A stretch of 64,000 nt of DNA from positions 24,061,235 to 24,125,234 of the forward strand of contig OX031069.1 of assembly GCA_943736015.1 (NCBI GenBank). The letters are read 5' to 3'. Below, piece after piece: positions 1,616 through 63,643 of the stretch. The stretch's first letter is position 1, and each line of letters opens with the position of its first letter. The notes below the pieces were generated by a model. That model was not told the DNA's origin and did no database searches. It saw nothing but the letters and a program-made list of their open reading frames with translations. Origin of the DNA: Tridacna crocea. Lineage: Eukaryota; Mollusca; Bivalvia; Cardiida; Cardiidae. The translations under genes and the position numbers were made by a program.

Positions 1616-1844
1616 TTAACCCTTTACCTGATATGCCAATTTGGGACTCTTGCATTTCAGCAGCAAATAAAGATATGATGTCAAAAATATAGACAAATGA
1701 GGATACAAATATCTGATTGAGCGAAAACATTGTGGGAAAAGGAGAAATTGCTCGTTACGAGCAATTTCTCCTTTTCCCACAATGTTTTCAAAAGTTGTCT
1801 GTTGTTGATGCGTCAAAATGAGTATCTATGGAGTAAAGGGTTAA
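1616..1844 (-). mobile_element. TTAA-hairpin MITE, GCTC subfamily
   Basis: TTAA-CCCTTTACC at the left and GTAAAGGG-TTAA at the right. The hairpin at 1722..1789 has the GAAATTGCTCG/CGAGCAATTTC tip instead of the common AAAATGCTGG tip. Flanks match the copy at 13884..14092 in reverse. Confidence 0.85.
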
Positions 1845-2144
1845 AACGTACGTAGGTGTCGCGTCAATAAACAAAACAATGTGATGAAAAGAAGTGTGGT
1901 TGACTTAATGAGTATTTGATTGGTGTTTACACCGCTTTAAACATTTTATTGTACCATGACGACAGCTTATTTCTCTGTTTCCTGTGTATCATCAACGCAG
2001 GGCTGGGGAACTGAAGTGCCCTTGCAAAATGCACTCCCACGGTACCATTGTCTCGAGTGAAGATCGAACGCCGAGACCGCCAGATTGCGAATCCTAGACC
2101 TGCACCCTTGATCCGTGCTTAGTATTATATAAGTCATGTTCTGT

Positions 2145-2225
2145 AGAAAAGGGGGCTTAATGTATCAGCCAAAACTATCTACGTGGTCAGCCTGCGCAGA
2201 CCGCGTCTTAAAGATCATTTTATGA
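2145..2225 (+). repeat. fragment of the GGGGGCTTAATGCA repeat family
   Basis: AAAAGGGGGCTTAATGTAT followed by GTCAGCCTGCGCAGACCGCG resembles the left half of the repeat at 57505..57760. The rest of 1845..2284 shows only a very degenerate tRNA-like B box around 2060 that I do not call. Confidence 0.35.
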
Positions 2226-2284
2226 TGTTGTCTCACGAGAACAAGTGATTGCTGTCTAAAATCAGATTCAATTTCTCAGTGGTT

Positions 2285-2346
2285 TCAGAAATTATTTTCT
2301 TTCTATCGTGGTTTATCGTTCAATAAACCACAGTTGTGAGTTTATT
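2285..2346. repeat. short hairpin repeat (GTGGTTTAT)
   Basis: GTGGTTTATCGTTCAATAAACCAC forms a short stem-loop. The same sequence is found inverted at 47621..47690, with flanking similarity on both sides. Confidence 0.5.
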
Positions 2347-2455
2347 TCATTTTAGATAAGGCTGAAATTTTGTCGTCTGGTAAAGGGTTAAATATGGCTG
2401 CAACATACATTTCAAAGAAATTCGGCTTGTCATGTTTTTATACACTAAAATTGAA

Positions 2456-2803
2456 ATTTTTTATTATATACCTAGCAGTGAAATCCTGGAATTTCCCAGT
2501 GTAATAAATTTTGATATCATCACTAGTGACGTTATCAACTTTCAGTTCCTGACGTCATTTGGGAACTACGTTTTTTTTTCGACTACATTTTTTTCGACTT
2601 TCAAACGCAAAATTACAAATAATGATGTTAATAAGGTATATAATAAATAGAATAATCAACTGGTTGTTTTTGATATGAAAAATATCTCACTCGGACGCGT
2701 CGTAAGGCGTTAAAAAAACTCGTGCTGCGCACTCGTTTTTTCAACGCCTAACAACGCATCCTCGTGAGATATTTTTCATATCAAAAACAACCAGTTGATT
2801 ATC
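2456..2803 (+). mobile_element. hairpin-bearing element, full copy
   Basis: Left part (2456..2574) contains CCTAGCAGTGAAATCCTGG; right part is a ~153-bp near-perfect palindrome (2651..2803), arms ATAATCAACTGGTTGTTTTT and its complement. The pair recurs inverted and truncated at 34491..34672. Sequences flanking this insert (2395..2455 and 2804..2880) lie next to each other at 4165..4300, an apparent empty site. Confidence 0.65.
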
Positions 2804-2929
2804 CTCTATATATTGTAGAACGAAATTCGATACGGTTTCAACCATTGATGTCAAGATTTGTAGAACGATTTATGTTCGCAAAAAGAAATGATATTTATGT
2901 AACAGTAAAGATCTGGTATACGATGCATC

Positions 2930-3115
2930 TTGTTTGATACCAAAAACGTAGACTTGCACAAATTGAAAGCATTTGTGGCAAAGGAGATAGATTTTTTTCT
3001 GAAATATTATAGGATAGAAAACACTGTGGAAAATGGAGAAACTACTTGTTTCCAGCATTTTCTCCTATTCCCACGATGTTTTTAAAAGTTTTTTTTTTTC
3101 CTCTAGGGTTGTTAA
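2930..3115 (-). mobile_element. degenerate TTAA-hairpin MITE
   Basis: AAATTGAAAGCATTTG flank, then GAAAACACTGTGGAAAATGG and its partner arm with mismatches. Terminal TTAA sites are eroded, so the boundaries are approximate. Confidence 0.5.
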
Positions 3116-3253
3116 ACCTCACGCAAAAAATGTTGAACATGTTGAATTCCAAACAACAAAATTTTCAACTTGTCCAAATAAAAAAAATTAGCAGATAAAA
3201 CTACTATTAATCCTTTCATCGTTGTGTTCCGAGTAAGTTTCGCATACTTTATT

Positions 3254-4015
3254 GTGGCGCCGCAAGAGTGGTGGCACTGTATCTTTATTCGGTTCTGAAA
3301 AGTACCTATAAAGGCAGCCATCTTGTTCACTCGGCTTCCAGTCATTTCGTAATAAGATCATTTCGTATTTTCGTACAATTTTGGTAATTTCGTACCCATC
3401 TGTACTTTTATTTGGTCATTTCGAAGTAACTTTGATCCTTTCGTATCAATTTTGGACATTTTATAACCAGTTTTTAATATCAATTCGGTAATATAGAACC
3501 TAGTCTTACTACTATTTTCTTGCGACGTTTGCCGAATGACAACTGCTTTTGTGCATAGTTCCAATTGAAATTACGTGAATTTCGCCGAAGAATGGCTATG
3601 ACTGTGTCTTGCCATTATTGACTCTTTAACCCTTTACTCCATAGATACTCATTTCTACACATTACTTGTAGGAGCCTTTGGAAAACATTGTGGCAAAAGG
3701 TGAAATTGCTCTTCAAGAGCAATTTCACCTTTTGTCACGATGTTTTCTATGTTATCAAAAGGTGTCATTTACACATAAGAAACGGCTTCATCCTTGCTGT
3801 TATTTAGGGTCAATTAGAGATACCATAGGAATGCCTTATGGGGTAAAGGGTTAAGTTTTTAATTCTAAGGATTTTTTAGGGCTTTTTTCAGTTCATTTCT
3901 CACAGATTTCTGCATAACTTTAATTTGGACAATTTGAAATGCTGTATTGTGCTTTATTTCAGAAACAAATGATTTGCGGCGCCATTGATGTTTTGCATCA
4001 AAATTTTCTTGTGAG
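3254..4015. mobile_element. GCGGCGCC repeat, copy A (interrupted)
   Basis: Begins near GGCGCCGCAAGAGTGG and ends after GATTTGCGGCGCCATTGATG. It includes a run of diverged TCATTTCGTA motifs. Uninterrupted paralogue at 56327..56893. A TTAA-hairpin MITE (3626..3854) splits this copy. Class unknown; the GCGGCGCC motif at both ends may be terminal. Confidence 0.6.
3626..3854. mobile_element. TTAA-hairpin MITE, GCTC/GGCAAAAGG subfamily
   Basis: TTAA-CCCTTTACTCC to GGTAAAGGG-TTAA, nested in the repeat above. The hairpin uses GGCAAAAGGTGAAATTGCTC arms. The paralogous site at 56730..56733 has a single TTAA and no insert, which shows the TTAA duplication directly. Closest relative: 12813..13041. Confidence 0.9.
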
Positions 4016-4159
4016 ATTCTTAATTTAGGTTTCACAAATCCTGTTAACTCAATTTCTTGATACATTTAATGATCGACAACAGTTGCATGTTTCTGAAAAA
4101 ATCGATGTTCAGCCTCCGTTTCAAGATAAATATGGCTGATTTATTGTTGCAGTGCCAGA

Positions 4160-4300
4160 GGTGAGATGAAACATGGCTACAAGATAGATTTCTGAGAAAA
4201 ACCAGCACGTTGTGTGTATATGTATACACCAAAATTAAACTCTAGATTGAAACTCGATACTGTTTCAACAGTTGTTATCAAGATTCGCTGAAAGATTTTA
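4160..4300. repeat. paralogue of the host of the 2456 element (empty site)
   Basis: TATACACCAAAATTAAACTC followed directly by GAAACTCGATACTGTTTCAAC matches the two flanks of the 2456..2803 element, without the insert. Confidence 0.5.
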
Positions 4301-4657
4301 TATTTGCACACAAACAAGGCCTAACACGAAGAATTTCGAGAGCAATTAACCACAATTTGTCCTTGGACTACGAACTCGTAAATAACACCCAAAAGTCTAA
4401 TTGATTGATTGATAGAATTTTGACAGCACCTAATCACAAATTTATTAATGTCCTTGCACTGGGAAATTCGTAAATGGCTTCAAAAATGCAATGTGATTTA
4501 TTTATTTATTTATTCATTTATTTGTTTACCGTTTATTTAATGGTCGCAACCAGTTGTCTGTACGGACGAACCCCCATTCCCTCCCCTCGGCCCTCTTCAA
4601 GGCTGTTATATAGGGAGAGAAAAACATACAACGAAACCCATCCATATACTTCTCTCT

Positions 4658-4892
4658 AGGGTCCCTGTTTACCAACCGTTCATAAGTACATTCCTATTCT
4701 CCAAGATTTCCTAAATTTGAAAGTAACAAAACTTCTGATTGGCTAAACCAGATGGTTAAGCCAATCAGAAGTTTTGTTTTTTTTTTTCAAAACTGTTCGA
4801 ACCAATAAGAAGATTTGTTACTTTCAACTTACGAAAATTCTGAAGAGGACGAGGAACGTTCCTATAACAATGGTTGGTGACCACGGACCCTG
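4658..4892. repeat. GTATTCACCAACC long palindrome, degenerate copy
   Basis: Outer arms GGTCCCTGTTTACCAACCGT and AATGGTTGGTGACCACGGACC. Inner arms are AAAGTAACAAAACTTCTGAT followed by TGGCTAAACCA. Better copies are at 46586..46787 and 48777..48976. The T-rich segment near 4780 breaks the inner stem. Confidence 0.65.
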
Positions 4893-4899
4893 ATCCTTT

Positions 4900-5042
4900 C
4901 ACTCTTTTAAAGTAACAAAACTTCTGATTGGCTAAACCATTCGGTTTAACCAATCAGACTTTTTGTTACTTTCAAGTTTAGAAGATTCTGAAGAATCGGA
5001 CACGAAACGTATAAAGAATGGTTGTTAAATACGAACCCCTGT
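4900..5042. repeat. GTATTCACCAACC palindrome, second degenerate copy
   Basis: Directly follows the previous copy. AAAGTAACAAAACTTCTGAT pairs with TTTTTGTTACTTTCAAG; the right outer arm AAGAATGGTTGTTAAATACG is kept and the left outer arm is lost. Confidence 0.55.
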
Positions 5043-5131: not shown

Positions 5132-5393
5132 GGCCCGCAATACACGAAAAAGTGACATTCGGACATTTCCGTAAAGTGTCGTCTCGGATCAGCCAGTGCA
5201 GTTCGCGCAGACCAATCCAAAACGACCTTTTCCATTCTTCTGTAAATTTTCTGTTTTGTACAAGTCTACTGTAGGATTAAATCGTATGTAGTCGTAAAGT
5301 GCCGTCTCGGATTAGCCTGCGCGGACTGCGCAGGCTGATCCGAGACGACACTTTACGCAAATATCCGGATGCCCCTTTTCGCGTGTTGTAGGC
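5132..5393. mobile_element. double-hairpin element (CGTAAAGTGTCGTC), degenerate
   Basis: TGGCCCGCAATACACGAAAA at the left and CGCGTGTTGTAGGCTA at the right. The right internal hairpin (GCCTGCGCGGACTGCGCAGGC) is intact and the left one is eroded. Eight copies or fragments occur in the window. Confidence 0.7.
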
Positions 5394-5437
5394 TATGTAT
5401 GCTTCTCTAAGTTAGAGGACGGCATTGATCAAGATCA

Positions 5438-6857: not shown

Positions 6858-7096
6858 TTAAACCATTACAACACAATCCCTACATTTGACGACCCTGAGA
6901 AAGAAGCCTATTGAAAACATTGTGGGAAAAGGAGAAAATGCTGGTAACCAGCATTTTCTCCTTTTCCCACAATGTTTTCTACGCTGCTGGAAACAAATCT
7001 CAAATTTTCAGTCACTTTTATTATTTCCTTTTTTGTCATCTGCAAATGCTTTCGATTTGGAAAAACCTATAATTTTGTCGTTTGGTAATGAGTTAA
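6858..7096 (+). mobile_element. TTAA-hairpin MITE, well preserved
   Basis: TTAA at both ends. The central hairpin at 6913..6979 is a perfect 67-bp stem (33-nt arms around one unpaired A in GGTAACC). The right flank GTCATCTGCAAATGCTTTCG is typical of the family. Confidence 0.9.
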
Positions 7097-7998: not shown

Positions 7999-8230
7999 TT
8001 AACCCATCACCACACAATCCCTACTTTTGACGCCCCAGAGAAAGAAGCCTTTTGAATTGAACACTGTGGGAAAAGGAGAAAATGCTGGTAACTAGCATTT
8101 TCTCCTTTTCCCACAGTGTTTTCTACCCTTCCCAGAACAAATTTCAATTTTTCAGTCATCTTTATTTTGTCGTCTGCAAATGCTTTGAATTTGGACCAGT
8201 CTAAAATTTTCCCGTGTGGTAAAGAGTTAA
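7999..8230 (+). mobile_element. TTAA-hairpin MITE
   Basis: TTAA-CCCATCACCACACAATCCC to GTAAAGAG-TTAA. The stem uses CACTGTGGG on the left and CCCACAGTG on the right, a matched variant of the common CATTGTGGG pair. Confidence 0.88.
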
Positions 8231-9023: not shown

Positions 9024-9670
9024 TTAACTCCTCACCAAACGACACGATTTTAGACTTGTAAAAATTGACAGCATTTGCAGACGACAAAATAAGCGTGACT
9101 CAAAGAATGAAACCTGGCTTTAGAAGAGTATAAAACATTGTGGGAAAAGGAGAAAATGCTGGTTACCAGCATTTTCTCCTTTTCCCACAATGTTTTCAGA
9201 AGGCTTCTTCTTCTAGGTCGTAAAACCAGGGATTGCTTGGTAAAGGGCATCTTCGCGAGCCAAGTTTACGATCACTACGTGGATCTTACCTTGCCTGATT
9301 GAATCCGATTTCGAGATTCCTGCGATGCGTCCTCTATTGGATGCTGGTTATTAACCCCCCCCCCCCCCCCTTTTAAATCATATTTCTAAAATCAAATGAA
9401 ATATCGTTTTACAAACCGCTTACGAATACACATGAAGCGATATGCAGACATCCACGTGGGTTTCCATGTTAACCTTTGAAAGGTAGCGACCTTGATCTAT
9501 TTTTATCTAAGATGAAATGCTACGAGCGATTTCATTCGTTGCAGCTAGAGCTGGCTGCATCCAATGAAAAAAGCGTATCGGGGCAATGTAAAAATCAAGC
9601 TCGATCCGCCAAGGGTAGAGTAACTTAATGAATCGTTAGCCTTGGCTTGCGAAGATTGGTAAACGGTTAA
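9024..9670 (-). mobile_element. TTAA-hairpin MITE split by another element
   Basis: Left TTAA at 9024 and a perfect hairpin with the GGTTACC centre. The right terminus GGTAAAGGG-TTAA is interrupted: a ~410-bp element (9248..9657) sits between GGTAAAGGG (9239..9247) and its duplicate GGTAAACGG (9658..9666), and TTAA resumes at 9667. Confidence 0.85.
9248..9657 (-). mobile_element. CATCTTCG element with 9-bp target duplication
   Basis: Terminal inverted repeats CATCTTCGCGAGCCAAG and CTTGGCTTGCGAAGAT. Flanking 9-mers GGTAAAGGG/GGTAAACGG match at 8 of 9 positions. Relatives: 43627..43927, 51208..51609 and 63809..64000. A poly-C tract near 9355 is internal. Non-autonomous; the 9-bp duplication would fit Mutator- or Merlin-like transposases. 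Confidence 0.8.
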
Positions 9671-10887: not shown

Positions 10888-11564
10888 TTAACCCATTACC
10901 ACACAATCCCTATTTTAACGACCCTTAGAAAGAAGCCTGTAGAAAACATTGTGGGAAAAGGAGAAAATGCTGGTAACCAGCATTTTCTCCTTTTCCCACA
11001 ATGTTTTCTACCCTTCATACCACACATTTCAATTTTTCAGTATAATCAAAATGAAGTATATAAGTATAATAAAATACAAGTAAAATAGAAATGTTTCAAT
11101 TAAGGAAAGACCTGTGTAATGGAAAAAAGCTATTTCCATTAAATTATCATCCTGCAAAATTAGCTTTAATTAAAAATGAGTATTATTGAACTACTTTCAC
11201 CGATTCATTTTTTCCACTGTTTCCTTCTTTGAATTATGATTTATAAATCTAAAACCACTTTATTCTCAATTCAAAAAAGAGATAATAATTACCTCCCTTT
11301 TCCGAAAAAAAAAACAAAAGTATCAAAAAATAATTTCAAGATAGACATAAACGGAATTTCTGATCCGTTAGAAATGTGTAAAAATATCATTTCTGCACAA
11401 ATCCTGATTTATCCTTATTTATCAACCAATCAGAATTTTTGCCCCATGTTCACCGGAAGTGCATTACACAGGTCTTACCTTAAATTATGATTATAATGAC
11501 TTGCTCTCTATTAAAGTATTGAATCAGATGCATAATTGTTAGGAATTGTGTGGTAAGGGGTTAA
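10888..11564 (+). mobile_element. TTAA-hairpin MITE, split copy
   Basis: Intact left half and perfect hairpin up to about 11040. The right terminus GTGTGGTAAGGGG-TTAA reappears at 11548..11564. Between them lies another TTAA-flanked element (11100..11483) plus AT-rich sequence. Confidence 0.75.
11100..11483 (+). mobile_element. TTAA-flanked GGACC/GGTCY element, copy 1 (nested)
   Basis: TTAAGGAAAGACCTGTGTAA at one end and TTACACAGGTCTTACCTTAA at the other. Internal AATTTCAAGATAGACAT block is shared with 37385..37737, 53968..54583 and 60901..61259. Lies inside the split MITE. Confidence 0.7.
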
Positions 11565-11722: not shown

Positions 11723-11951
11723 TTAACTCATTACCACATGAGAAAATTTTGGACTGGTCCAAATTGAAAGCATTTGCAGACGACAAAATGAAGGTGACTG
11801 AAAAATAGGTATTTGTTCTGGGAAGGGTAGAAAACACTGTGGGAAAAGGAGAAAATGCTGGTTACCAGCATTTTCTTATTTTCCCACAGTGTTTTCAAAA
11901 GGCGTCTTTCTCAGGGGTGTCAAAAGTAGGGATTGTCTGGTAATGGGTTAA
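11723..11951 (-). mobile_element. TTAA-hairpin MITE
   Basis: TTAA-CTCATTACCACATG to GGTAATGGG-TTAA, with CACTGTGGG/CCCACAGTG arms. One arm has TTATTTTCCC where the other has GGGAAAAGG, a rare mismatch. Confidence 0.88.
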
Positions 11952-12812: not shown

Positions 12813-13041
12813 TTAACCTTCTACTTCATAGATACTCATTTCTACGCATTGCTTGTAGAAGCCTTTGGAAAACATTGTAGCAAAAGGTGAAATTGCTCGT
12901 CACGAGCAATTTCACCTTTTGCCACAATGTTTTCTATGCTATCAAAAGGTGTCATATACACATAAGAAACGGCTTCATCCTTACTGTTGTTTAGGGTCAA
13001 ATAGAGATACCATAGAAATGCCTAATGGGGTAAAGGGTTAA
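12813..13041. mobile_element. TTAA-hairpin MITE, GCTC/GGCAAAAGG subfamily
   Basis: Same subfamily and length as 3626..3854, including AAGAAACGGCTTCATCCTTA and the TACCATAGAAATGCC right flank. Confidence 0.88.
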
Positions 13042-17158: not shown

Positions 17159-17388
17159 TTACCCCTTTAGCACACAATGACGACTATTGACGACCCTGGG
17201 AAAGAGGCCTTTTAAAATCATTTTGGGGAAAGGAGAAAATGCTGGTACCCAGCATTTTCTCCTTTTCCCAAAATGTTTTCTACTCCATCAAAAAACGATT
17301 GTAATGCTTGAGCCATATTGAAATTGTCGTCTGCAAATGCTTTTCAATTTGGACAAGGCTTAAAGTTTGTCGTGTGGTAAAGATTTAA
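17159..17388 (+). mobile_element. TTAA-hairpin MITE, left unit of a dimer
   Basis: Starts TTAC-CCCTTTAGCACACAA. The stem carries CATTTTGGGGAAAGG, matched by CCCAAAATG on the other side. Ends at the TTAA (17385..17388) shared with the next copy. Confidence 0.85.
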
Positions 17389-17599
17389 TCCCGGGTTTTA
17401 CGACCCTGAAAAAGAAGGCTTTTGAAAAACATTGTGGAAAAAGGAGAAACTGCTGGTAACCAGCAGTTTCTCCTTTTCCCCCAATGCTTTTTACCCTGCT
17501 AGCAACAAACTTTAATTTTTACACTTGCGTTTATTTTGTCATCCGCAAGTACTTTCAATTTGGACCAGTGTAAATTTTTGTCGTTTGGGAAAGGGTTAA
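17385..17599 (+). mobile_element. TTAA-hairpin MITE, right unit of a dimer
   Basis: Begins at the shared TTAA but lacks the CCCTTTACCAAACAA terminus, entering at TCCCGGGTTTTACGACC. Stem tip AACTGCTGG pairs with CCAGCAGTT, again a two-sided change. Ends GGGAAAGGG-TTAA. Confidence 0.85.
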
Positions 17600-20087: not shown

Positions 20088-20316
20088 TTAACTCTTTACC
20101 ACACGACAAAATTTTAGACTGGTTCAAATTGAAAGCATTTGCAGACAACGAAATAAAGGTGGCTGAAAAATTGAAATGTGTTCTGGGAAGGATAGAAAAC
20201 ACTGTGGGAAAAGGAGAAAATGCTGGTTACCAGCATTTTCTCCTTTTCCCACAGTGTTTTCAAAAGGCTTCTTTCTCAGGGGCGTCAAAAGTAGGGATTG
20301 TGTGGTAACGGGTTAA
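20088..20316 (-). mobile_element. TTAA-hairpin MITE
   Basis: TTAA-CTCTTTACCACACGAC to GGTAACGGG-TTAA; perfect stem with CACTGTGGG/CCCACAGTG. Confidence 0.9.
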
Positions 20317-21748: not shown

Positions 21749-21976
21749 TTAACCCGTTCCCAAACAACAAATTTTGGACTCTTCCAAACTGAAAGAGTTT
21801 GGAGACAACAATTTTAGATTTTGAGAAAATGGCAGAAAGTTCTCAAAAAGGGTAGAAAACACTGTGAGAAAAGGAGAAATTGCTCGTCACGAGCAATTTC
21901 TCCTTTTCCCACAGTGTTTTCAAAAGACGTTTACTGCAGACACGTAAAAACCAGGGCTTGTTTGGGAAAGGGTTAA
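21749..21976 (-). mobile_element. TTAA-hairpin MITE with GCTC tip
   Basis: TTAA-CCCGTTCCCAAACAAC to GGGAAAGGG-TTAA. Stem GAAATTGCTCGTCACGAGCAA inside otherwise ordinary flanks, so the tip variant occurs on two different flank backgrounds. Confidence 0.85.
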
Positions 21977-28849: not shown

Positions 28850-29077
28850 TTAACCCTTTACTAAAGTATTCCGGCTTTCTACGACCTCGAAGAAAGGAGC
28901 TTTTGAAAACATTGTGGGAAAAGGAGAAAATGCTGGTAACCAGCATTTTCTCCTTTTCCCACAATATTTTCTATACATTCAAATACAAGAGTAATAATTT
29001 AGGTCCGCAGGTGATTTGTTCTCTCGCAATGCCTTCAATATGATTGTCTAAATTTTTGTTTTCTGGTAGAAGGTTTA
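28850..29077 (+). mobile_element. TTAA-hairpin MITE
   Basis: TTAA-CCCTTTACTAAAG start, perfect stem except CACAATATT, and an eroded right end (GGTAGAAGGTTTA). Confidence 0.85.
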
Positions 29078-31535: not shown

Positions 31536-31768
31536 TTAAATCTTTACCAAACGACAAAAATTTAGACTGGTCCAAATTGAAAGCACTTGCAGACGACAAA
31601 ATAAACGTGACTCAAAAATTGAAATTTGTTTCCAACAGGGTAGAAAACATTGTGGGAAAAGGTGAAAATGCTGGGTACCAGCATTTTCTCCTTTTTCCTA
31701 CAATGTTTTCAAAAGACTTCTGTCTCAGGATTGTAACAAAAAACAGGGATTATTTGGGAAAGAGTTAA
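31536..31768 (-). mobile_element. TTAA-hairpin MITE
   Basis: TTAA-ATCTTTACCAAACGAC to GGGAAAGAG-TTAA, near-perfect stem with a GGTACC centre. Confidence 0.88.
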
Positions 31769-34672: not shown

Positions 34673-34936
34673 TGGAGTGCAACACACGAAAAAGTGCATT
34701 CGGACATTTGCGTAAAGTGTCGTCCCGGATTAGCCTGCGCAGTCCGCGCAGGCTAATCCGAGACGGCACTTTACGACTACAATTAGATTTTGTGCTACAG
34801 TAGACTTGCGTAAAACAGAAAATCACATAAAATCAGAAAGTGTCGTTTCGGATTAGCCAGTGCGGACTGCACACGCTGATCAGAGACGAAATTTTACGCA
34901 AATGTCCGAATGGCCCTTTTCGCGTGTTGCACTCCA
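34673..34936. mobile_element. double-hairpin element with 8-bp target duplication
   Basis: TGGAGTGCAACACACG and CGTGTTGCACTCCA ends flanked on both sides by TATAATAA (34665..34672 and 34937..34944). Host copy at 2456 has the empty site. Two internal hairpins, about 62 and 66 bp, separated by TTTGTGCTACAGTAGACTTG. An 8-bp duplication fits hAT-type transposases. Confidence 0.85.
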
Positions 34937-36368: not shown

Positions 36369-36584
36369 AGCTCTTTACCACACAATGACGACTTTTGACG
36401 ACTCTGAGGAAGAAGCCGTTTGAAAACATTGTGAGAAAAGGAGAAAATGCTGGTTACCAGCATTTTCCCCTTTTCTCACAAAGTTTTCTACCTTGTCAAA
36501 GGAAAATTGCCACTATGAAATTGTCATCTACAAATGCTTTTAATTTGGATAGGTTTAAAGTTTTGCCGTGTGGTAAAGGGTTAA
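36369..36584 (+). mobile_element. TTAA-hairpin MITE
   Basis: CTCTTTACCACACAATGACG start and GGTAAAGGG-TTAA end. The stem has CATTGTGAGAAAAGG with a partner CTTTTCTCACAAAG, a two-sided change. Confidence 0.85.
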
Positions 36585-38506: not shown

Positions 38507-38735
38507 TTAACTCTTTACCAAACGACACATTTTTAAACTGGTTCAAAATGAAAGCATTTGCAGACGACAAAATGAATGTAATTCAAAAATTGAAATTTGT
38601 TTCCGGCAGGGTCGAAAACATTGTGGGAAAAGGAGAAAATGCTGGTTACCAGCATTTTCTCCTTTTCCCACAAAGTTTTCAAAAGGTTTCTACCCCAGGT
38701 TCGTAAAAACCAGGGATTGTTTGGGAAAGGGTTAA
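38507..38735 (-). mobile_element. TTAA-hairpin MITE
   Basis: TTAA-CTCTTTACCAAACGAC to GGGAAAGGG-TTAA; a stem mismatch only at CACAAAG. Confidence 0.9.
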
Positions 38736-39278: not shown

Positions 39279-39502
39279 TAATCCTTTACTAAACAATCCC
39301 TGGTTTTTACCCTGAGATAGAAGCCTTTTGAAAACATTGTGGGAAAAGAAGAAAATGCTGGTAACCAGCATTTTCTCCTTTTTCCACAATGTTTCAACCC
39401 TGCCAGAAACAAATTTCAATATTTGAGTTACGTCTATTTTGTCGTCTGCAAGTACTTTCAATTTGAACCAGTCTAGAAATTTATCGTTTTGTAAAGAGTT
39501 AA
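39279..39502 (+). mobile_element. TTAA-hairpin MITE that seeds the 63-bp satellite
   Basis: TTAA-TCCTTTACTAAACAATCCC to GTAAAGAG-TTAA with a normal stem. Its last 36 bp (ACCAGTCTAGAAATTTATCG...TTAA, from 39467) are the first part of satellite unit 1. Confidence 0.88.
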
Positions 39503-40662
39503 ACCTCTTTTTTACAATATTTACAACGACCAGTCTAGAATTTTTATCGTTTGGTAAAGACTTAGAACTCTTTTTTACAATGTTTACAACGACCAGTCTA
39601 GAATTTTTATCGTTTGGTAAAGACTTAAAAGTCTTTTTTACAATGTTTACAACGACCAGTCTAGAATTTTTATCGTTTGGTAAAAAGTTAAACCTCTTTT
39701 TTACAATATTTACAACGACCAGTCTAGAATTTTTATCGTTTGGTAAAGACTTAAAACTCTTTTTTACAATATTTACAACGACCACTCTAGAATTTTTATC
39801 GTTTGGTAAAGAGTTAAAACTCTTTTTTACAACGTTTACAACGACCACTCTAGAATTTTTATCGTTTGGTAAAGAGTTAAAACTCTTTTTTACAACATTT
39901 ACAACGACCACTCTAGAATTTTTGCCGTTTGGTAAAAAGTTAAACCTCTTTTTTACAATGTTTACAACGACCAGTCTAGAATTTTTATCGTTTGGTAAAA
40001 AGTTAAACCTCTTTTTTACAATATTTACAACGACCAGTCTAGAATTTTTATCGTTTGGTAAAAAGTTAAACCTCTTTTTTACAATGTTTACAACGACCAG
40101 TCTAGAATTTTTATCGTTTGGTAAAGAGTTAAAACTCTTTTTTACAACATTTACAACGACCAGTCTAGAATTTTTATCGTTTGGTAAAGACTTAAAACTC
40201 TTTTTTACAATGTTTACAACGACCACTCTAGAATTTTTATCGTTTGGTAAAAAGTTAAACCTCTTTTTTACAATGTTTACAACGACCAGTCTAGAATTTT
40301 TATCGTTTGGTAAAGAGTTAAAACTCTTTTTTACAACATTTACAACGACCAGTCTAGAATTTTTATCGTTTGGTAAAGACTTAAAACTCTTTTTTACAAC
40401 GTTTACAACGACCAGTCTAGAAATTTTATCGTTTGGTAAAGACTTAAAACTCTTTTTTACAATGTTTACAACGACCAGTCTAGAATTTTTATCGTTTGGT
40501 AAAGAGTTAAAACTCTTTTTTACAACATTTACAACGACCAGTCTAGAATTTTTATCGTTTGGTAAAGACTTAAAAGTCTTTTTTACAATGTTTACAACGA
40601 CCAGTCTAGAAATTTTATCGTTTGGTAAAGAGTTAAAACTCTTTTTCACAATATTTACAACA
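39467..40662. repeat. 63-bp satellite derived from a MITE terminus
   Basis: One 62-bp seed unit (39467..39528) and 18 exact 63-bp units from 39529. Each unit is ACCAGTCTAGAATTTTTATC + GTTTGGTAAAGAGTTAA (the MITE right end) + AACTCTTTTTTACAATATTT + ACAACG (flank). Units fall into a few variants (gacttaaaactc, gagttaaaactc, aagttaaacctc; ATG/ATA/ACA/ACG before TTTACAACG). Because 63 is divisible by three and the unit lacks stops, long frames run through both strands; they are not genes. Confidence 0.95.
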
Positions 40663-41186
40663 AACAGGAACTGTGGAGACATTCGTTCATTACCTCCCCA
40701 CACGCTATTTTGTTCATAAAATTCTCTTATCGTATTTATCATGTGCTAATATTATGGTATAATTACGAGCTGCAGATTGCGGACAAATAAACGTTGAACG
40801 GGGCGATGACCTCTTGTCCTTAACTTCAACTATAATACATAATAAAGCAACGGATATTGTAGATCCAAGATCAGACTGCACCTTTTGTGCAGTCTGATCT
40901 TGATCTACAATGTCCGCAAAAACTATTTTGTACTTTGACGGCAGTGACTTTTGTAAACCTTTTATCGTGTTGATCATGTGCTAAAATCACGGTATGATTA
41001 AGAGGTTCAGATTTCGGACAAATAATCTTTCAATAATGGGCGATAACCTTTTCCTCTCAGCATCATCTAATACAAAATAACGTAACTGACATTGTAGATT
41101 CACGATCAGTCTGCACCTTCTGCAAAATCAACCTTAGTCATTGATGTAACGACTTGTGTGAATCTCTTATCGTGTTTATCATGTGC

Positions 41187-41941: not shown

Positions 41942-42166
41942 TTAAGCCTTTATCTCACAATGCGGACTGTTAAAGACACTGAGAAAGAAGCCCTTGGAAA
42001 ATATTGTTGGAAAAGGAGAAAATGCTGGATACCAGCATTTTCTCCTTTTCCAACGATGTCTTCTACCATATGATAGACAGCATAGTGCACGTTGCATATG
42101 GCTTTTGGTCAGCAAATGATTTCAACTTTGACAAATCTACAATTTTACAGTATGGTAAAGAGTTCA
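41942..42166 (+). mobile_element. TTAA-hairpin MITE inside the array
   Basis: TTAA-GCCTTTATCTCACAATGCGG start, eroded GGTAAAGAG-TTCA end. The stem has ATTGTTGGAAAAGG matched by CCTTTTCCAACGAT. Confidence 0.82.
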
Positions 42167-43204
42167 TGCAAAACTGTTGTAACATATGAACCCATACAGA
42201 AATATGTAAGTGATCCCTATCAAAGTTTGAGTAGTACACAAAACAAACTGGCTGTTGGAGATCACAAGATCATACTGCAATTCTAGAGCAGTCTGGTCTT
42301 GATCTACAATATCTACGAAACCCGCATTTGTCATTCCTGGTGGCGATTGCTGCAAGTCTCTTCTTCTATTTATCATACGTTGATGTTATGGTGTAATTAA
42401 TAATCAATTGCGGAAAAACAAATGTTCAATTCAGGGCAACGACCTTTCCACAAACTGACGGACATTGTAAATCCAACATCAGACTACACGTTCTGTGCAG
42501 TCTGATCTTTATCTAGACTGTCCGAAAAAGTCACTCTCTTCATCGCTGGTAGCGACTGTTGTAAGTCTCACATTTCTCACATTGTACGTATCACGCGCTT
42601 ATATAATGATAAAATTAATTACCAGTCACAGATAGGGGGCAAAATAAATGTTCAATAAAGGGCAACGACCTTTTGCTGTATGTTATACTAATACAAAACA
42701 AAATGATTGACTGTTGTAGATTCAGGATCAGACTGTACGTTTTGGTGCCGTTTGATCTTGATCTATAGCGTTCGAAAACCTATTTGTTCATCGATAGCAA
42801 CGGCAGAATTAAACCTCTTATCGTATTTATCATGTGCTAATATCACGGTGTAATTACCAGTTAGCAGATAGCTGACAAATTCACGTTCTATACAGGGCAA
42901 TGGCCTGTAGCCATATCTTTTCCAGGGTAATAAAATAGATATGGCGTGTAATTAAAGATGCAAAGCGCAAACATCATTTATTCACTAATTTACATAATTA
43001 AGTATTGCTGCTATCAAATTCAGAAAGGTGGATTATGGAACTAGAAATTTCCAAGGGCGACAAATACAACTGATCGATTGTGTAGTCAGTGGATCAGGAA
43101 AAAAGTCAAAGGGCGGTAACTCCGGTTGTAAGTCGACCAATCATAAAACTAATTACAGGTGCACCTGGCAGAGGGGTTTCCTTCAAATTACATGTAAACG
43201 GGTT

Positions 43205-44434: not shown

Positions 44435-44664
44435 TAAACCCTTTACCACACAATCCCGAGTTTTAACGACCCATCAGAAGTAGCCTTTTAAAAACTTTGT
44501 GGGAAAAGGAGAAAATGCTGAAAAACAGCATTTTCTCCTTTTCCCACAATGTTTTCAAAACTATCGGATTCACATCCAATCATTTGTGCCGTGTAATTTT
44601 TGTCGTCTGATGTTTTTGGTTGAATTGGACCAAGCTAAAATGGTGTCGTCTGGGAAAGAGCTAA
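44435..44664 (+). mobile_element. TTAA-hairpin MITE
   Basis: GTAA-ACCCTTTACCACACAATCCC to GGGAAAGAG-CTAA. Stem tip AAAATGCTGAAAAACAGCATT, where both sides have lost the GGTAACC centre. Confidence 0.85.
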
Positions 44665-46585: not shown

Positions 46586-46787
46586 AGGATCCGTATTCAC
46601 CAACCGTTCTTTAGAACACTCTTTTGTCTTATTCTCCAGACATTTCTACATTTGAAAGTAACACAACTTCTGATTGGCTAAACCAAATGGTTTAGCCAAT
46701 CAGAAGCTGTGTTACTTTCAAACTTGGACAATCTTGGAGAGTAAGACAAAGAAAGTTCTTAAGAATGGTTGGTGAATACGGGCCCAG
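46586..46787. repeat. GTATTCACCAACC long palindrome
   Basis: GATCCGTATTCACCAACCGT to TGGTTGGTGAATACGGGCCC, inner TTCTGATTGGCTAAACCAAA with its complement. About 200 bp of near-continuous palindrome. Confidence 0.85.
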
Positions 46788-47285: not shown

Positions 47286-47509
47286 TAAAACCTTTACCAA
47301 ACGACAAAACTGTAGGCCAGTCCAAATTGAAATGACTTGCATACGACAACATACGTATGACTCAAAATTTGAGTAGAAAATTGGGTACAAAACATTGTGG
47401 GAAAAGGAGAAAATACTGGTTACCAGCATTTTCTTCTTTTCCTACAATGTTTACAAAAGGCTTCTTTCTCATGGTTGTCAAAAGTCGGGATTGTGTGGTA
47501 AAGAGTTAA
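47286..47509 (-). mobile_element. TTAA-hairpin MITE
   Basis: TAAA-CCTTTACCAAACGAC to GGTAAAGAG-TTAA; two stem mismatches (AATACTGG, TTCTTTTCC). Confidence 0.85.
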
Positions 47510-48033: not shown

Positions 48034-48300
48034 TTTGGCCTTTAACAAAACAATCTTGCGCTCTAACGAACCTGAGAACGAAGACTTTGAGTAAAGGTGA
48101 AAACGTTTAACAGGTAAAGACTGGTAAAAATATTGCGAGAAAAGGAGAAAATGCTGGTAACCAGCATTTTCTCCTTTTCACACAATATTTTCTACCTGTT
48201 CACCAATAAATCCAATCTTTTTGGCCTAGCCTAAATTATCATCTGCAAATGTTTTCAGCTTGGACAATTCTAAAATGTTGTCGTCTGGCTAAAGTGTTAA
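48034..48300 (+). mobile_element. TTAA-hairpin MITE, longer left flank
   Basis: CCTTTAACAAAACAATC start, about 40 extra bases before the stem (GAAAACGTTTAACAGG...), perfect inner stem, GCTAAAGTG-TTAA end. Confidence 0.8.
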
Positions 48301-48776: not shown

Positions 48777-48976
48777 AGGGCTCGTATTCACCAACCATTC
48801 TTGAGAATATTCTTGTTCTTATTCTCCAAGGTTTTCCAAATTTGTAAGTAACACAACTTCTGATTGGCTAAACCGAATGGTTTAGCCAATCAGAAGTTGT
48901 GTTACTTACTAATGTAGAAAATTCTGGAGAATATGACCAAGAACCTTCTTAAGAATGGTTGGTGAATACAGGCCCA
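48777..48976. repeat. GTATTCACCAACC long palindrome
   Basis: AGGGCTCGTATTCACCAACC to GGTTGGTGAATACAGGCCC with inner TGATTGGCTAAACCGAATGG stem. Close relative of 46586..46787. Confidence 0.85.
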
Positions 48977-50313: not shown

Positions 50314-50551
50314 TTAACCCCTTCCCAAACAACCCATGGTTTTCATGACCCTGAGAAAAAGCCTTATGAAAACATTGTGGGAAATGGAGAAAATGCTGGT
50401 AACCAGCATTTTCTCCTTTTCCCACAATGTTTTCTTCCATTTCCCCCAAAAAACTTCAATTTTCGTGTCACACGTGTCACATTTATTTGGTCGTCTGCAA
50501 ATGATTCTAATATGGAACAGTCCAAAACTATGTTGTTTGGTAATGAGTTAA
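50314..50551 (+). mobile_element. TTAA-hairpin MITE, right of a pair
   Basis: TTAA-CCCCTTCCCAAACAACCC, 5 bp after the older copy and in the same orientation; near-perfect stem; GGTAATGAG-TTAA end. Confidence 0.85.
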
Positions 50552-53965: not shown

Positions 53966-53967
53966 AG

Positions 53968-54885: not shown

Positions 54886-55148
54886 TGGAGTGCAACACGC
54901 GAAAAGGTGCATTCGGACATTTGCGTAAAGTGTCGTCCCGGATTAGCCTGCGCAGTCCGCGCAGGCTAATCCGAGACGGCACTTTACGACTACATTAGAT
55001 TTTGTGCTACAGTAGACTTGTGTAAAACAGAAAATCACATAAAATCGGAAAGTCTCGTTTCGGATTAGCCTTTGCAGACTGCACACGCTGATTCGACACG
55101 ACACTTTACGCAAATGTCCGAATGCACCTTTTCGCGTGTTGTACGCCA
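54886..55148. mobile_element. double-hairpin element, closest relative of 34673
   Basis: TGGAGTGCAACACGCG to CGCGTGTTGTACGCCA; shares GTGTCGTCCCGGATTAGCC and GTGCTACAGTAGACTTG with 34673..34936. I see no target duplication here. Confidence 0.82.
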
Positions 55149-58339: not shown

Positions 58340-58567
58340 TTAACCCATTACCAAACAACAATATTTTAGACTGGTCCAAATTGAAAGCATTTGCAGACAA
58401 CAAAATAAAAGTGACTGAAAATTTGAAATTTGTTTTGTGAAGGGTAGAAAACATTGTGGGAAAAGGAGAAAATGCTGGTTACCAGCATTTTCTCCTTTTT
58501 CCACAATGTTTTCTGAAGGCTTCTTTCTCAGGGGCGCCAAAAGTAGGGATTGTGTGGTAATGGGTTA
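58340..58567 (-). mobile_element. TTAA-hairpin MITE
   Basis: TTAA-CCCATTACCAAACAAC to GGTAATGGG-TTAA, perfect stem. The bases before it (GGAGTTTAACGCCATTTCAA) look like a SINE end. Confidence 0.9.
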
Positions 58568-58962
58568 AGTCATGTCATTGCTATCAGGGAATGCTGTTGA
58601 TTTCAAAACCGCTTTCAATTCATTTCAATTTTATCATTAAGGTATTATCTCATAAAGTCATGTATTTCCTTTGTGCCATCAGTGCAAGACTGTGGATGTG
58701 CCATGCCTTGCCTAAGGTATCTTCAACGGGGGACTGAATAATCATGTGTTTAAGCCTTGCACAAAGGCAAACAAAATCTTTTCTAATCTTCGAAAAAAAT
58801 CTTGTATAACAAGAGAAAAAGTTCACGCCGATCTAATGTAGTAGAAACTAGGAAATGGCTTATTGATCGTAAAACGCTATAAAATGCAAAATACATTTTC
58901 TTTCGCAGAGATAAAGTCACACGTTATCCCATGTAGTTCTAAATTCGATCGGAACTGCTTAT
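58568..58962. other. no clear feature
   Basis: Possible decayed SINE body (CAATTCATTTCAATTTTATC); not supported further. Confidence 0.35.
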
Positions 58963-59129: not shown

Positions 59130-59356
59130 TTAACCCTTTACTACACAATCCCGACTTTTGACGCCCCTGAGAAAGAAGCTTTTTGAAAACATTGTGAGAA
59201 AAGGAGAAAATGCTGGTAACCAGCATTTTCTCCTTTTCCCACAATTTTTTCTTCCCTTCTCAAGGCAAATTTTAATTTTTCAGTGTCATAAATTTTGTTA
59301 GCTGCAAATGCTTTCAATTTGGCCCAGTCTAAAATTTTCTTGTGTGGTAAAGAGTT
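59130..59356 (+). mobile_element. TTAA-hairpin MITE
   Basis: TTAA-CCCTTTACTACACAATCCC to GGTAAAGAG-TTAA; stem intact except CACAATTTT. Confidence 0.9.
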
Positions 59357-59359
59357 AAT

Positions 59360-60229: not shown

Positions 60230-60495
60230 TTTTACCCCATTTTATACTGACATAAAAATTGTGAGAAAATGTGACGCTGTGACCAAACATTTTCTTATCA
60301 TCCTTCAAAACTATTTGCAGACCGCAAATTACGTGTGGCTTAGACAGAGGATTTTCATTTTTAGAATTGTAGAAAACCTTGTTAGAAAAGGAGAAAACGC
60401 TGGTACCCAGCATTTTTCTCGTTTTCTTACAATAATTTCAAAAGGCTCCTCCGCCAGGGTCATTAAAACTCGGATATCATGTGGAAAGGGTTTAA
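60230..60495 (-). mobile_element. TTAA-hairpin MITE, old copy
   Basis: ACTATTTGCAGACCGCAAAT flank, TTGTTAGAAAAGGAGAAAAC arm and its partner, GGAAAGGGTTTAAGGG end. Confidence 0.65.
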
Positions 60496-60890
60496 GGGAA
60501 TAGAAGTACATGTATCTTTTAGCACAAGCCTTTGAAGATCTTTTGGTCTATCAATAAAATTGTCCTTGGTACCCAGCATTTTCTCCTTTTCTTACAATGT
60601 GTTCAAAAGGCTCCTCTGTCAGGGTCGTTAAAATTCGATATCGTGTGGAAAGGTGTTAAGGGATTAGAAGTATCTTTCAGCACAAGCCTTTGAAGATCTT
60701 TTGGTCTATCAATAAAATTGTTCTTGGAATCCAGCATTTTCTCCTTTTCTCACAATGTTTTCAATAGGCTCTTTCGTCAGGGTCGTTAAAATTCGATATC
60801 GTGTGGAAAGGTGTTAAGGGATTAGAAGTATCTTTTAGCACAGGCCTTTGAAGATCTTTTGGTCTATCAATAAAATTGTTCTTGGAGGAT
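60408..60890 (+). repeat. ~160-bp tandem array made from half a MITE
   Basis: Three units starting with CAGCATT at 60408, 60574 and 60732. Each carries one stem arm, GGGTCGTTAAAATTCGATAT, GGAAAGGTGTTAAGGG and then non-MITE GAAGATCTTTTGGTCTATCA. Units 2 and 3 are nearly identical. Confidence 0.85.
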
Positions 60891-60900
60891 CAACGAACGC

Positions 60901-61259
60901 TTAAAGTAGGTGACGCGTAACACTTCTAGTGCAGCATGGAGTAAAATTTCTTGATGGTTTATGAATATGGATTTATGAAGTTATAATACTTTTGCATATA
61001 TTTAAACGACCAGAAATTCCTATCTAAAAATTATTAGTTGATACTTTTGTTAGTTTCCAGAAAAGGGAGTAATTATTATCTCCCATTGTAATGAGAATAT
61101 AGTGGCTTTATACTGATAAATGATAATTCTAAGAATGAAAAAAGGAAAAAGATTCTTGTTTAAAGAAGTAAAGTAATACTCTTTTTGAATCATAGCAAAC
61201 TTTGTAAGATAATATTCAGTGGTAATGGCTTTTTTTTTTATTACGGGTCCACTACCCTA
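60901..61259 (-). mobile_element. TTAA-flanked GGACC/GGTCY element, copy 4
   Basis: TTAAAGTAGGTGACGCGTAA at the left and TTACGGGTCCACTACCCTAA at the right. Interior is the complement of 53968..54311. Confidence 0.72.
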
Positions 61260-61712
61260 AGGCACATTGGTGTATCGCTTTTACATCACTGAATATACAT
61301 TCGAATTTTCATTAACACTGTTTTAATAAAAAGCACCTTGGCGACCCCATCTATATCGTACATAGGATACTGAGGAAATCCCCTCAATGTGCTATTTATA
61401 GTAACATGTCCGAGCGTCTGATAATGAAAATTTCGATATCCCTTGACACACTAACGGAGTCTCAGAGGCCTATGCTTTTAGTGTTAACAGTAACAGAAAA
61501 AACTTGCAGCTAAAAATACCGTGGGTGGAAGAACCTAGAGACAGTAAAACCTTGTTTAACCTAATTTTGGGCAAAACCCGCGAAAATCTGCTTAAAACGG
61601 AGAATTTAGTTACAGATGAAATACATGTATTGAATATGAAAAGGCCTTTAACAGTCAGGGGAACTGTTGGAATGCTTTGTGTTACAATTGGAATTTTGAA
61701 AGAGAATTTAAT
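61260..61712. other. no feature recognised
   Basis: 82- and 86-codon frames on opposite strands (61470..61752) overlap; neither has a domain. Confidence 0.4.
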
Positions 61713-61939
61713 TAACCCTTTCCCAAACAATCCCTGGTTTTTACGACCCTAGGATAGAAGCCTTTTGAAAACATTGTGGGAAAAGGAGAAAATGCTGGTA
61801 ACCAGCATTTTCTCCTTTTCCCACAATGTTTTCTACCCTGCCAGAAACAAATTTCAATTTTTGAGCTACGTTTATTTTGTCGCCTGCAAGTGTTTTCAAC
61901 TTGGACCTGTACGAGATTTTGTTGTATGTAAAGGGTTAA
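61713..61939 (+). mobile_element. TTAA-hairpin MITE, well preserved
   Basis: TTAA-CCCTTTCCCAAACAATCCC to GTAAAGGG-TTAA with a perfect stem; good reference copy for the + orientation. Confidence 0.92.
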
Positions 61940-61984
61940 GAATGGTTGCTGATTACGCCCCCATACTCCTGAACCCTTGGGGTC

Positions 61985-62000
61985 TTCGTTCGAAGATCCC

Positions 62001-62037
<37 letters not shown>

Positions 62038-62110
62038 GTTTGGGTGTGTGTGTGTCTGTCTGTCTGTCTGTGCCGGTCTCTGTCCGATTCTCTCTCTGTA
62101 TCTGTTTCTT

Positions 62111-62167
<57 letters not shown>

Positions 62168-62364
62168 AGATCTTTTTCTGCTTGTCTGTCTGTCTTTTTA
62201 GCCTGCCTTTCTTGCTTTCCATGTCTGAGAGTCTATGCATTTCTCTCTCCCCTTTCCGCCCTTTCCGCCCTCTCTCTCTGCTTGTCTGTCTTTCCTTTTA
62301 GTCTGTCTTTCTTGCTCTCCGTGTCTGAGAGTCTATGAATTTCTCTCTCCTTCCGCCCCCTCCC

Positions 62365-62402
<38 letters not shown>
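61985..62402. repeat. CTGT/CT microsatellite complex
   Basis: (CTGT)n then (CT)n, then a ~100-bp block (CTTGTCTGTCTGTC...TCTGAGAGTCTATG) repeated twice, then (CT)n. Frames rich in Leu/Ser/Cys/Val here are not genes. Confidence 0.92.
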
Positions 62403-62621
62403 AAAGTACGATTTCCAATGTCTTCTCTTGACTTTATTATCTCTGGAAAACACGTTTATTTTATGTGACTTGTTTTCTTCGATTCCTGTATTTTACATTA
62501 TACTTAATTGAAATTCCAAATCGTCGATGATTAACTCACATCTTGTCGAATTTGTTTTATCGAATAACACGAAAATCAATTATGGTTGGCTTCTCGCTAT
62601 TTATTTATCTATAAAACATAA

Positions 62622-62653
62622 ATACGAGAGGTGTTCGAAAAGTTTCGGGACGA
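62622..62653 (+). mobile_element. isolated mariner-type terminus
   Basis: TACGAGAGGTGTTCGAAAAG then TTTCGGGACGAC matches the typical inverted end of mariner-type elements, with a TA before it. No transposase follows. 62654..62893 is otherwise empty apart from a half GATC palindrome near 62800. Confidence 0.55.
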
Positions 62654-62893
62654 CTGGCGTCATTCTTTTATTTGTTAAGATTTTTTCTTTCGGTAGTAAT
62701 GGCTACAACTATATTCCATGGGTTAATCGAAACAAATTAACGAGGATTTACCCCAAACGTGATGAATGGTCACTATAGCAAAAGAAAAGTGTAAATGTAG
62801 GTCAAGATCAGATTGCGCTATGAAGCAATAGATCTGTTTATGTTTTATTTTGTTTGATTTCTGTTTGACACTTGGAATTAAAATTTCAGATTT

Positions 62894-63128
62894 TTAATGA
62901 CCCTTTAGCAAACAATTCCAAGTTTTAACAATCCAAAAGAAGAAGCCTTAAAATAACCACTTCTGAAAAGGGATGCAATGTTGGTAACCAGTATTTTCTC
63001 CTTTTCCATCAATTTTCTCCTTTTCTAATCTTGTAGAAACAAATCCAGTAATTTGAGCCACTTATAGGATATTTGTCGTCTGCAAATTCTGTCATTTTGA
63101 CCGACCTAAAACTTTGTCGTTCGGTTCA
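62894..63128 (+). mobile_element. TTAA-hairpin MITE, old, left unit of a dimer
   Basis: TTAA-TGACCCTTTAGCAAACAATTCC, a badly broken stem with one arm duplicated (TTTTCTCCTTTTCCATCAA), and GTCGTCTGCAAATTCTGTC flank. Confidence 0.7.
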
Positions 63129-63356
63129 CTCTTTACGAAACAATCCACGGTTTTTACGATCCTGGGATAGAAGTGTTTCGCAAAAATTGTGGGAAATAAA
63201 AGAAAAAGCTGGTAACCAGCATTTTCTCCTTTTCCCACAATTTCTGCTACCCTGCTGGAAACAAATTTCAATTTTTTGAGCTACGTTTATTTTGCCGTCT
63301 GCAAGTGCTTTCAATTTGGACCAGTCTAACAATTTTGTCGTTTGGTAAAGAGTTAA
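63125..63356 (+). mobile_element. TTAA-hairpin MITE, right unit of a dimer
   Basis: TTCA-CTCTTTACGAAACAATCC starts exactly where the previous copy ends; GGTAAAGAG-TTAA end. Stem with AAAAGCTGG mismatch. Confidence 0.82.
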
Positions 63357-63419
63357 GGATTAAGTAACATCTTATTTGCTTAATTCTGTTGCCTAGCCTG
63401 CTTAACCCGGTAAAATAAG

Positions 63420-63643
63420 TCAATTCTTTACACAATCAGGGCTTTTAACACCACTGTATAGACTTTTGAAAACATTGTTGGAAAAGGAGAAAATGCTGGT
63501 AACCAGCATTTTCTCCTTTTCCCACAAAGTTTTCTTCCCCATCCGAAATAAAAAAAATCTCTATTTCAGTAACATTTAATTTGTCGTCAGCAAAATCTTT
63601 CAATTTGGACCAGTCTAATTTTTGTCGTTTGGTTAAGAGTTAA
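63420..63643 (+). mobile_element. TTAA-hairpin MITE
   Basis: CAATTCTTTACACAATCAGG start, near-perfect stem (ATTGTTGGAAAAGG against CCTTTTCCCACAAAG), GGTTAAGAG-TTAA end. Confidence 0.85.

Follow-up and report, generated by a model that had tools for sequence, protein, structure and literature searches.

Matched arm changes in an abundant palindromic piggyBac-type MITE of Tridacna crocea point to inherited subfamilies and occasional copying of one arm onto the other

Introduction

The CMITE elements of Acropora corals are piggyBac-related miniature inverted-repeat transposable elements (MITEs), and passages of the paper describing them give CC[C/T]T as a terminal motif of piggyBac-type MITEs and propose a role in transposition for the internal region that the CMITE families share (PMC2872659). 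When the two arms of a stem have changed to match each other, this is commonly read as the best evidence of functional RNA structure, and template switching has been proposed to create and maintain RNA hairpins, with the evidence for the upkeep of short stems called circumstantial by the authors themselves (Monttinen and Loytynoja 2022, in passages of PMC8794818). Here we analyze a hairpin that recurs in a 64,000-nucleotide stretch of Tridacna crocea DNA (contig OX031069.1, positions 24,061,235 to 24,125,234; hereafter the window). Its stem is the palindrome inside a piggyBac-type MITE that is non-coding and very abundant. This MITE resembles CMITE, as described in the passages of PMC2872659, in its TTAA target site, its CCCTTT-type ends and an internal region common to families with differing ends.

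We give a probability of about 0.7 to an account in three parts: matched subfamily changes that are inherited, near-independent decay of the two arms after insertion, and occasional copying of one arm onto the other within a copy.

Results and Discussion

The element and its abundance

A near-perfect 67-bp palindrome (consensus GAAAACATTGTGGGAAAAGGAGAAAATGCTGGTAACCAGCATTTTCTCCTTTTCCCACAATGTTTTC) forms the center of a TTAA-flanked element of about 229 bp. A left part of 55 bp, which includes the start TTAA-CCCTTTACC (or CCCATTACC or CCCTTTCCC), precedes the stem, and 107 bp lead from the stem to the inverse of the start and the second TTAA. Exact matches to the intact 31-bp core were found at 191,599 places in the genome, which was searched as one assembly of 1,048,827,098 bases in 31 contigs. 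A sample of twenty 10-kb pieces cut at round coordinates (L009-L028) held 144 stems with at least 44 of 67 positions matching without gaps, or about 0.7 per kb, and if this density is typical the genome total would be several hundred thousand copies.

The window contains 48 near-perfect palindromes, compared to none in one mononucleotide shuffle, and 27 of them belong to this MITE family by reading. With 30 ungapped stems and 35 elements located by flanks alone, the hairpin family reported in a preliminary description of the window is indeed present, and the figure of about 42 copies given there is plausible, as our counts exclude broken copies. Only chance frames run across the MITE copies in the window's list of open reading frames, as judged by eye.

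Matched changes inherited by subfamilies

Nine flank references (F1 to F8 and F3b) were used to group the copies, and 171 of 199 could be assigned. The consensus stem pairs at 33 of 33 positions in seven of the eight flank families with at least three copies, and at 32 of 33 in F4. Five of the six fixed stem differences between families (positions 8, 14, 21, 26, and 31) are changed in both arms; the sixth, position 55 in F4, is changed in one arm (T in 9 of 16 copies, giving a G-T mismatch). These counts support spread by transposition, one of the two origins that had been proposed for the paired arms. One-arm variants reaching at least 25% of a family occur at position 54 in F7 (12 of 44 copies) and at positions 55, 61, and 62 in F8 (4 of 15 each). 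They mark either hot spots or unpaired sub-lineages, and they cut against a tight upkeep of symmetry even in families.

Stem type tracks flank family: the GCTC tip is carried by all copies of F4 (16/16), F5 (8/8), and F6 (2/2), F1 comprises 10 CACTG and 7 plain stems, and a single CACTG stem occurs among the 28 copies of F3. The CACTG and GCTC pairs are therefore inherited subfamily variants rather than private changes. The presence of the GCTC tip on three flank backgrounds was confirmed. As for the exchange of stems that this distribution had been thought to hint at, all four combinations of position 8 (T or C) and tip (GG or CG) are present, which is compatible with exchange, but the hint is unproven, as recurrent matched change could give the same result. 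At the stem center (position 34), F4 has G in 11 of 16 copies and C in 5, while elsewhere G to C is the rarest change of G (16 of 205); the split could reflect a subfamily or an inverted center.

Near-independent decay with an excess of matched changes

Our main set consisted of elements located by flanks alone in the window and in loci L009-L034. Of these 175 elements, 169 had an alignable stem and 6 were left out (stem score under 20). Changes were scored against the nearest subfamily stem, with the right-arm change at position 55 of F4 set to unchanged, and the expectation was obtained by shuffling right arms among copies of like divergence (permutation within strata). An intended collapse of the tandem copies in L010 took out none.

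The 169 copies carried 448 one-arm changes, 27 matched changes, and 14 double changes that did not match. Perfect arms were retained in only 17 copies, and 74 had four or more arm differences. The arms therefore mostly decay independently, while matched changes reach about twice their expectation (27 compared to 13.0 +/- 3.6; P = 0.0003). The non-matching doubles serve as a built-in control and were flat (14 compared to 13.1 +/- 3.3; P = 0.43). The matched excess was found in the outer half of the stem (15 compared to 8.1; P = 0.013) as well as the inner half (12 compared to 4.9; P = 0.003), and alternative shuffles of the same copies gave 12.4 expected matched changes, with none of 2,000 shuffles reaching the observed count. 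The outer and inner parts of the stem also differ in divergence, a difference that unbiased copying would not explain. One copy (L026:9643) carries two matched changes. The claim that the stem usually stays paired as it diverges was thus not borne out, since most mutation breaks pairs. Comparing arms and flanks across copies, as had been proposed, gave both a tip variant that spans more than one flank lineage and paired changes above expectation. An excess beyond chance does exist; it is small in these copies and very clear genome-wide at site 26, as described below, although most changes affect one arm.

Selection that keeps individual stems paired, for instance as a source of small RNA, is highly improbable as the cause of this excess. 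Judged from sequence, many copies could still fold, but the scarcity of perfect arms and the preponderance of one-arm changes argue against such upkeep, and no Rfam family reached its threshold in the window.

Copies selected by stem likeness gave a similar picture (184 of 199 copies, after 15 rows in which an arm had more than 9 changes were dropped), with 35 matched changes compared to 21.3 +/- 4.3 expected (P = 0.0035), 31 non-matching doubles compared to 29.5, and 609 single changes. We made the flank-located counts the main result because choosing copies by stem likeness, together with the inclusion of the pattern-picked loci L001-L008, could bias pairing. Two other palindromic repeats do not provide firm support for arm copying: P2, a mixture of subfamilies, had 32 matched changes in 17 copies compared to 18.6 expected (P = 0.006), and P3 had 10 in 13 copies compared to 7.8 expected (P = 0.19).

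Both-arm changes across the genome

We additionally examined the 31-bp core genome-wide at the partner pairs 26/42 and 29/39. The change A26C occurred in one arm at 650 places (331 and 319 for the two arms) and in both arms at 15, next to the 191,599 unchanged cores. Under independence 0.55 both-arm cores are expected (Poisson P = 6e-17, or 3e-13 with the expectation raised 1.8-fold). For all changes at pair 26/42, 3,941 places were changed in one arm and 111 in both. Among 50 listed doubles of these 111, 40 were complementary (21 T/A, 13 G/C, and 6 C/G) and 10 were not, where 39% complementary was expected (P = 4e-9). The non-partner control 26/43 gave 70 places over two position combinations, 32 of them of complementary type. 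This corresponds to about 16 complementary and 19 other doubles per combination, compared to about 89 and 22 for the true partners (scaled from the 50 listed doubles). At pair 29/39, 8,538 places were changed in one arm and 305 in both.

Expressed as a share of one-arm changes, the excess was 1.9% (1.3 to 2.4%) at site 26 and 1.0% (0.1 to 1.8%) at site 29, with intervals that reflect only the sampling of the 50 listed doubles. The one-arm frequency per arm was about 1.0% at site 26 and 2.2% at site 29. By our own arithmetic, and given copies of like age, the rate of copying per mismatch and that of point mutation per site would differ by no more than a few-fold.

An artefact of assembly or polishing, in which the consensus of one arm is drawn toward that of the other by palindromic reads or strand-blind k-mers, would also produce matched doubles. 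Palindromes are hard to sequence, and all of the evidence comes from one assembly. Such a correction, however, would be expected for the most part to bring back the common sequence and not to spread a rare one, and the one-arm changes at site 26, including those to C, survive in the assembly in the numbers given above. We consider an artefact very unlikely.

Flank backgrounds of the both-arm copies

We examined 36 loci with both arms changed at site 26: 14 A26C loci, the window copy with its stem at 17425 (the 15th A26C), L023:1223, and 20 more (10 A26G and 10 A26T). Flanks could be assigned in 29 of them, distributed over F7 (8), F2 (7), F3 (5), F8 (5), and F1 (4), while the background counts of these families were 44, 36, 28, 15, and 17, respectively. 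The mean pairwise flank identity within the A26C, A26G, and A26T groups was 0.730, 0.764, and 0.742, compared to 0.744 for random background copies. The 20 loci changed in both arms at site 29 (2 of them at pair 26 too, the other 18 at pair 29 only) included 17 with assignable flanks, which fell into six families with a mean identity of 0.728. The both-arm copies are therefore spread over families, with flanks no more alike than those of random copies, and the events are largely independent. The excess of matched doubles is recurrent and does not depend on the flank.

These distributions bear on two alternatives. If inheritance alone were responsible, matched changes would be made in source elements, kept by selection on the stem and spread by transposition. 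The flank-linked CACTG and GCTC stems fit such a scheme, as do a few both-arm copies that are related or possibly so (see below), but the scatter of the both-arm copies over five flank families at site 26 and six at site 29 does not, and we regard it as unlikely. Alternatively, gene conversion or recombination between elements could have moved rare both-arm stems to other flanks. The GCTC tip on three families and the four combinations of position 8 and tip are what such exchange would leave, yet stem type is tied to flank throughout F4 and F5, and with only 15 both-arm A26C donors in about 190,000 cores, very frequent exchange would be needed. We hold it to be quite improbable.

Proposed origin of the matched changes

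In the three-part account, source elements would carry perfect or near-perfect palindromes, and most differences between subfamilies would be matched changes passed on to their copies. Once inserted, most copies would be freed from pairing and mutate arm by arm. In about 1 to 3% of arm changes, the change would also be written into the opposite arm of that copy, on any flank background. As to the route, copying most likely occurs by fold-back (intrastrand) template switching while the DNA is replicated or resynthesized in repair, or else when mismatches in an extruded hairpin are repaired. The subfamily changes may have arisen in source elements by the same copying, which we infer only. The two alternatives originally proposed for the paired stems, copying of one arm onto the other and spread of variants by transposition, thus both seem to operate, at different levels, with copying as the minor contribution.

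The choice of route rests on the center base, which was inverted no more often in the both-arm copies. Among the both-arm copies, 29 of 36 at site 26 and 15 of 20 at site 29 retained the center A, compared to 119 of 145 background copies (F1, F2, F3, F3b, F7, and F8), with the orientation unsure for 10 of the 56. Inversion of the center, the mark of interstrand template switching, was not enriched among these 56 copies. Frequent flipping of the palindrome, with a center that reads about half A and half T in a strand-blind listing, was a separate candidate that we rejected, as the flank-oriented center is A in 127 of 171 copies.

Several observations weigh against this account. L059 and L060, which lie 19 kb apart and have extra stem changes in common, are duplicates of one event, and a small subfamily may account for three A26G copies on F1. 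Pair 29 gives a weak signal: complementary doubles made up 29 of the 50 listed out of 305, compared to 42% expected (P = 0.02). Non-matching doubles exceed simple independence 1.8-fold at site 26 and 2.3-fold at site 29, so copies differ in rate. Only two loci are changed in both arms at pairs 26 and 29 together, of which L081 is complementary at both and L082 at 26 only. In L081 the outer stem and the flanks are badly decayed and the 31-bp core is perfect. Co-copying of two pairs in one of two loci is too few to prove tract copying. The genome-wide test covers two sites, with the types of doubles taken from the first 50 places listed, and the whole of the evidence comes from a single assembly.

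Copies in the window

The positions in the preliminary description are element starts. Of the eight named, seven agree to within 1 base with the start that the stem predicts, and 17385 is off by 15. The copies and stems are as follows.

1616-1844, minus strand: MITE copy, F6, GCTC tip, stem 1723-1789, 33/33 pairs, TTAA at both ends
3626-3854, plus strand: MITE copy, F4, GCTC tip, stem 3681-3747, 31/33 pairs, TTAA at both ends
6858-7086, plus strand: MITE copy, F2 by flank score, stem 6913-6979 identical to consensus, 33/33 pairs
8057-8123, plus strand: stem, F1 (CACTG), 29/33 pairs
9131-9197, minus strand: stem, F3, 32/33 pairs
10942-11008, plus strand: stem, F2, 33/33 pairs
11723-11951, minus strand: MITE copy, F1 (CACTG), stem 11830-11896, 31/33 pairs, TTAA at both ends
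12813-13041, plus strand: MITE copy, F4, GCTC tip, stem 12868-12934, 32/33 pairs, TTAA at both ends
17159-17387, plus strand: MITE copy, F8, stem 17214-17280, matched change at pair 10 (G10T) and 4 unpaired changes
17370-17598 (start approximate), plus strand: MITE copy, F3, stem 17425-17491, matched A26C (one of 15 both-arm cores genome-wide)
20088-20316, minus strand: MITE copy, F1 (CACTG), stem 20195-20261, 33/33 pairs, TTAA at both ends
21749-21976, minus strand: MITE copy, F5, GCTC tip and CACTG base, stem 21855-21921, 32/33 pairs
28905-28971, plus strand: stem, weak flank, 32/33 pairs
31643-31709, minus strand: stem, F3, decayed or gapped, 23/33 pairs
36422-36488, plus strand: stem, F8, matched change G13A, 31/33 pairs
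38507-38735, minus strand: MITE copy, F3, stem 38614-38680, 32/33 pairs, TTAA at both ends
39330-39396, plus strand: stem, F3, 29/33 pairs
41942-42170, plus strand: MITE copy, F8 by best score, stem 41997-42063, matched G12T and 4 to 6 unpaired changes (two alignments)
44435-44663, plus strand: MITE copy, F7, stem 44490-44556, loop opened (GAAAAAC), matched change absent
47388-47454, minus strand: stem, F7, 28/33 pairs
48126-48192, plus strand: stem, weak flank, matched change C6T, 30/33 pairs
50368-50434, plus strand: stem, 32/33 pairs
58340-58568, minus strand: MITE copy, F2, stem 58447-58513, 32/33 pairs, TTAA at both ends
59130-59358, plus strand: MITE copy, F1 by best score, stem 59185-59251, 31/33 pairs, TTAA at both ends
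61712-61939, plus strand: MITE copy, F3, stem 61767-61833 identical to consensus, 33/33 pairs, TTAA at both ends
63181-63247, plus strand: stem, F3, decayed or gapped, 21/33 ungapped pairs
63468-63534, plus strand: stem, F7, 31/33 pairs

The paired variants listed in the preliminary description were recovered (CACTG/CAGTG, CATTTTGGG/CCCAAAATG, AACTGCTGG/CCAGCAGTT, TTGTTGG/CCAAC, and AATTGCTCG/CGAGCAATT). The copies named for them do carry their paired changes, but unpaired changes occur in the same stems (4 in that at 17214, and 4 or 6 in that at 41997, depending on which of two alignments is used). The loss of GGTAACC on both sides, described for the copy at 44435, is not a paired change: GGTAACC has become GAAAAAC, which places A opposite A and opens the loop.

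Two other palindromic repeat families of the window, of the GTCTCGGATTAGCCTGCGC and CTTCTGATTGGCTAAACC types, lie at 5292-5358, 34710-34776, and 54923-54989 and at 4719-4784, 46654-46719, and 48844-48909; their few copies yielded no decisive count of matched changes. A tandem array at 39427-40719 has a 23-residue pattern that is open on both strands (430 amino acids on the plus strand and 523 on the minus strand), with a 69-bp unit by eye. Outside the window, L010 (C1:25000000-25009999) holds a tandem array of about 1.67-kb units with one MITE stem per unit, and the six stems listed are identical. At L002:1471, L004:1471, L006:1471, and L007:1471, part of one arm is gone, and these copies resemble deletions within a palindrome; they were picked by a short-spacing pattern and are uninformative on the frequency of deletion.

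piggyBac affiliation

A motif search found TTAA at both ends of 56 distinct copies among 200 (58 rows); in the remainder the ends are decayed or truncated, or the copy lies at the edge of a locus. The terminal inverted repeats begin with CC[C/T]T, with CCCTTTACC, CCCATTACC, or CCCTTTCCC at both ends. TTAA together with CCC(T/A)TT ends is the mark of piggyBac-type elements, and the element is therefore a piggyBac-type MITE. The piggyBac transposase family PF13843 has 118 matches in the genome. Many of these lie in open frames and several have identical scores, which suggests recent activity. Three of the five transposase-bearing elements examined (L071, L092/L093, and L094/L095) end in TTAACCCTTT or TTAACCCATT, and no element ends were found for the other two transposase loci (L069 and L070). 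The match between their ends and those of the MITE stops after about 10 bp, so that it does not single out any of them as the partner of the MITE.

Comparison with known systems

The stem consensus is common to families whose flanks differ strongly. The element differs from CMITE in length (about 229 bp compared to about 100 bp) and in number, as CMITE is reported in far fewer copies; the text passages of PMC2872659 contain no mention of a hairpin or palindrome and no analysis of arms, and the 60-bp CMITE sequence printed there shows no resemblance to this stem when compared by eye only. In the open-access literature searched, we found no piggyBac MITE with a palindrome for bivalves, nor the stem or end sequence described here, nor a report of arm copying measured in an unselected repeat family.

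Matched changes recur here in copies without upkeep of pairing, which means that covariation can come from mutation alone. The roughly 190,000 intact cores on unlinked flanks constitute a natural assay of arm copying by mismatch type, loop distance, and tract length. At somewhat less than even odds, we put forward the broader view that, in a family with hundreds of thousands of hairpins under no selection, arm copying generates matched "compensatory" changes at near the point-mutation rate (within a few-fold, per mismatch) and, in source elements, could found palindromic subfamilies such as that with the GCTC tip.

The closest precedent for arm copying is the template switching described in RNA hairpins, in which, as proposed here, one arm is rewritten from the other and matched changes arise in one event. 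Its fold-back form keeps the loop, as in the both-arm copies (passages of PMC8794818). The cases in those passages are rRNA genes and microRNA loci under selection, whereas the copies studied here form an unselected repeat family. Quasi-palindrome mutations in yeast, as described in passages of PMC3820800, likewise represent a known mechanism of arm copying, observed in reporter assays under high transcription rather than in a natural repeat family. The mechanism itself is thus known, and what seems new, within the literature searched, is this element, with its copies as evidence for arm copying without selection on the stem.

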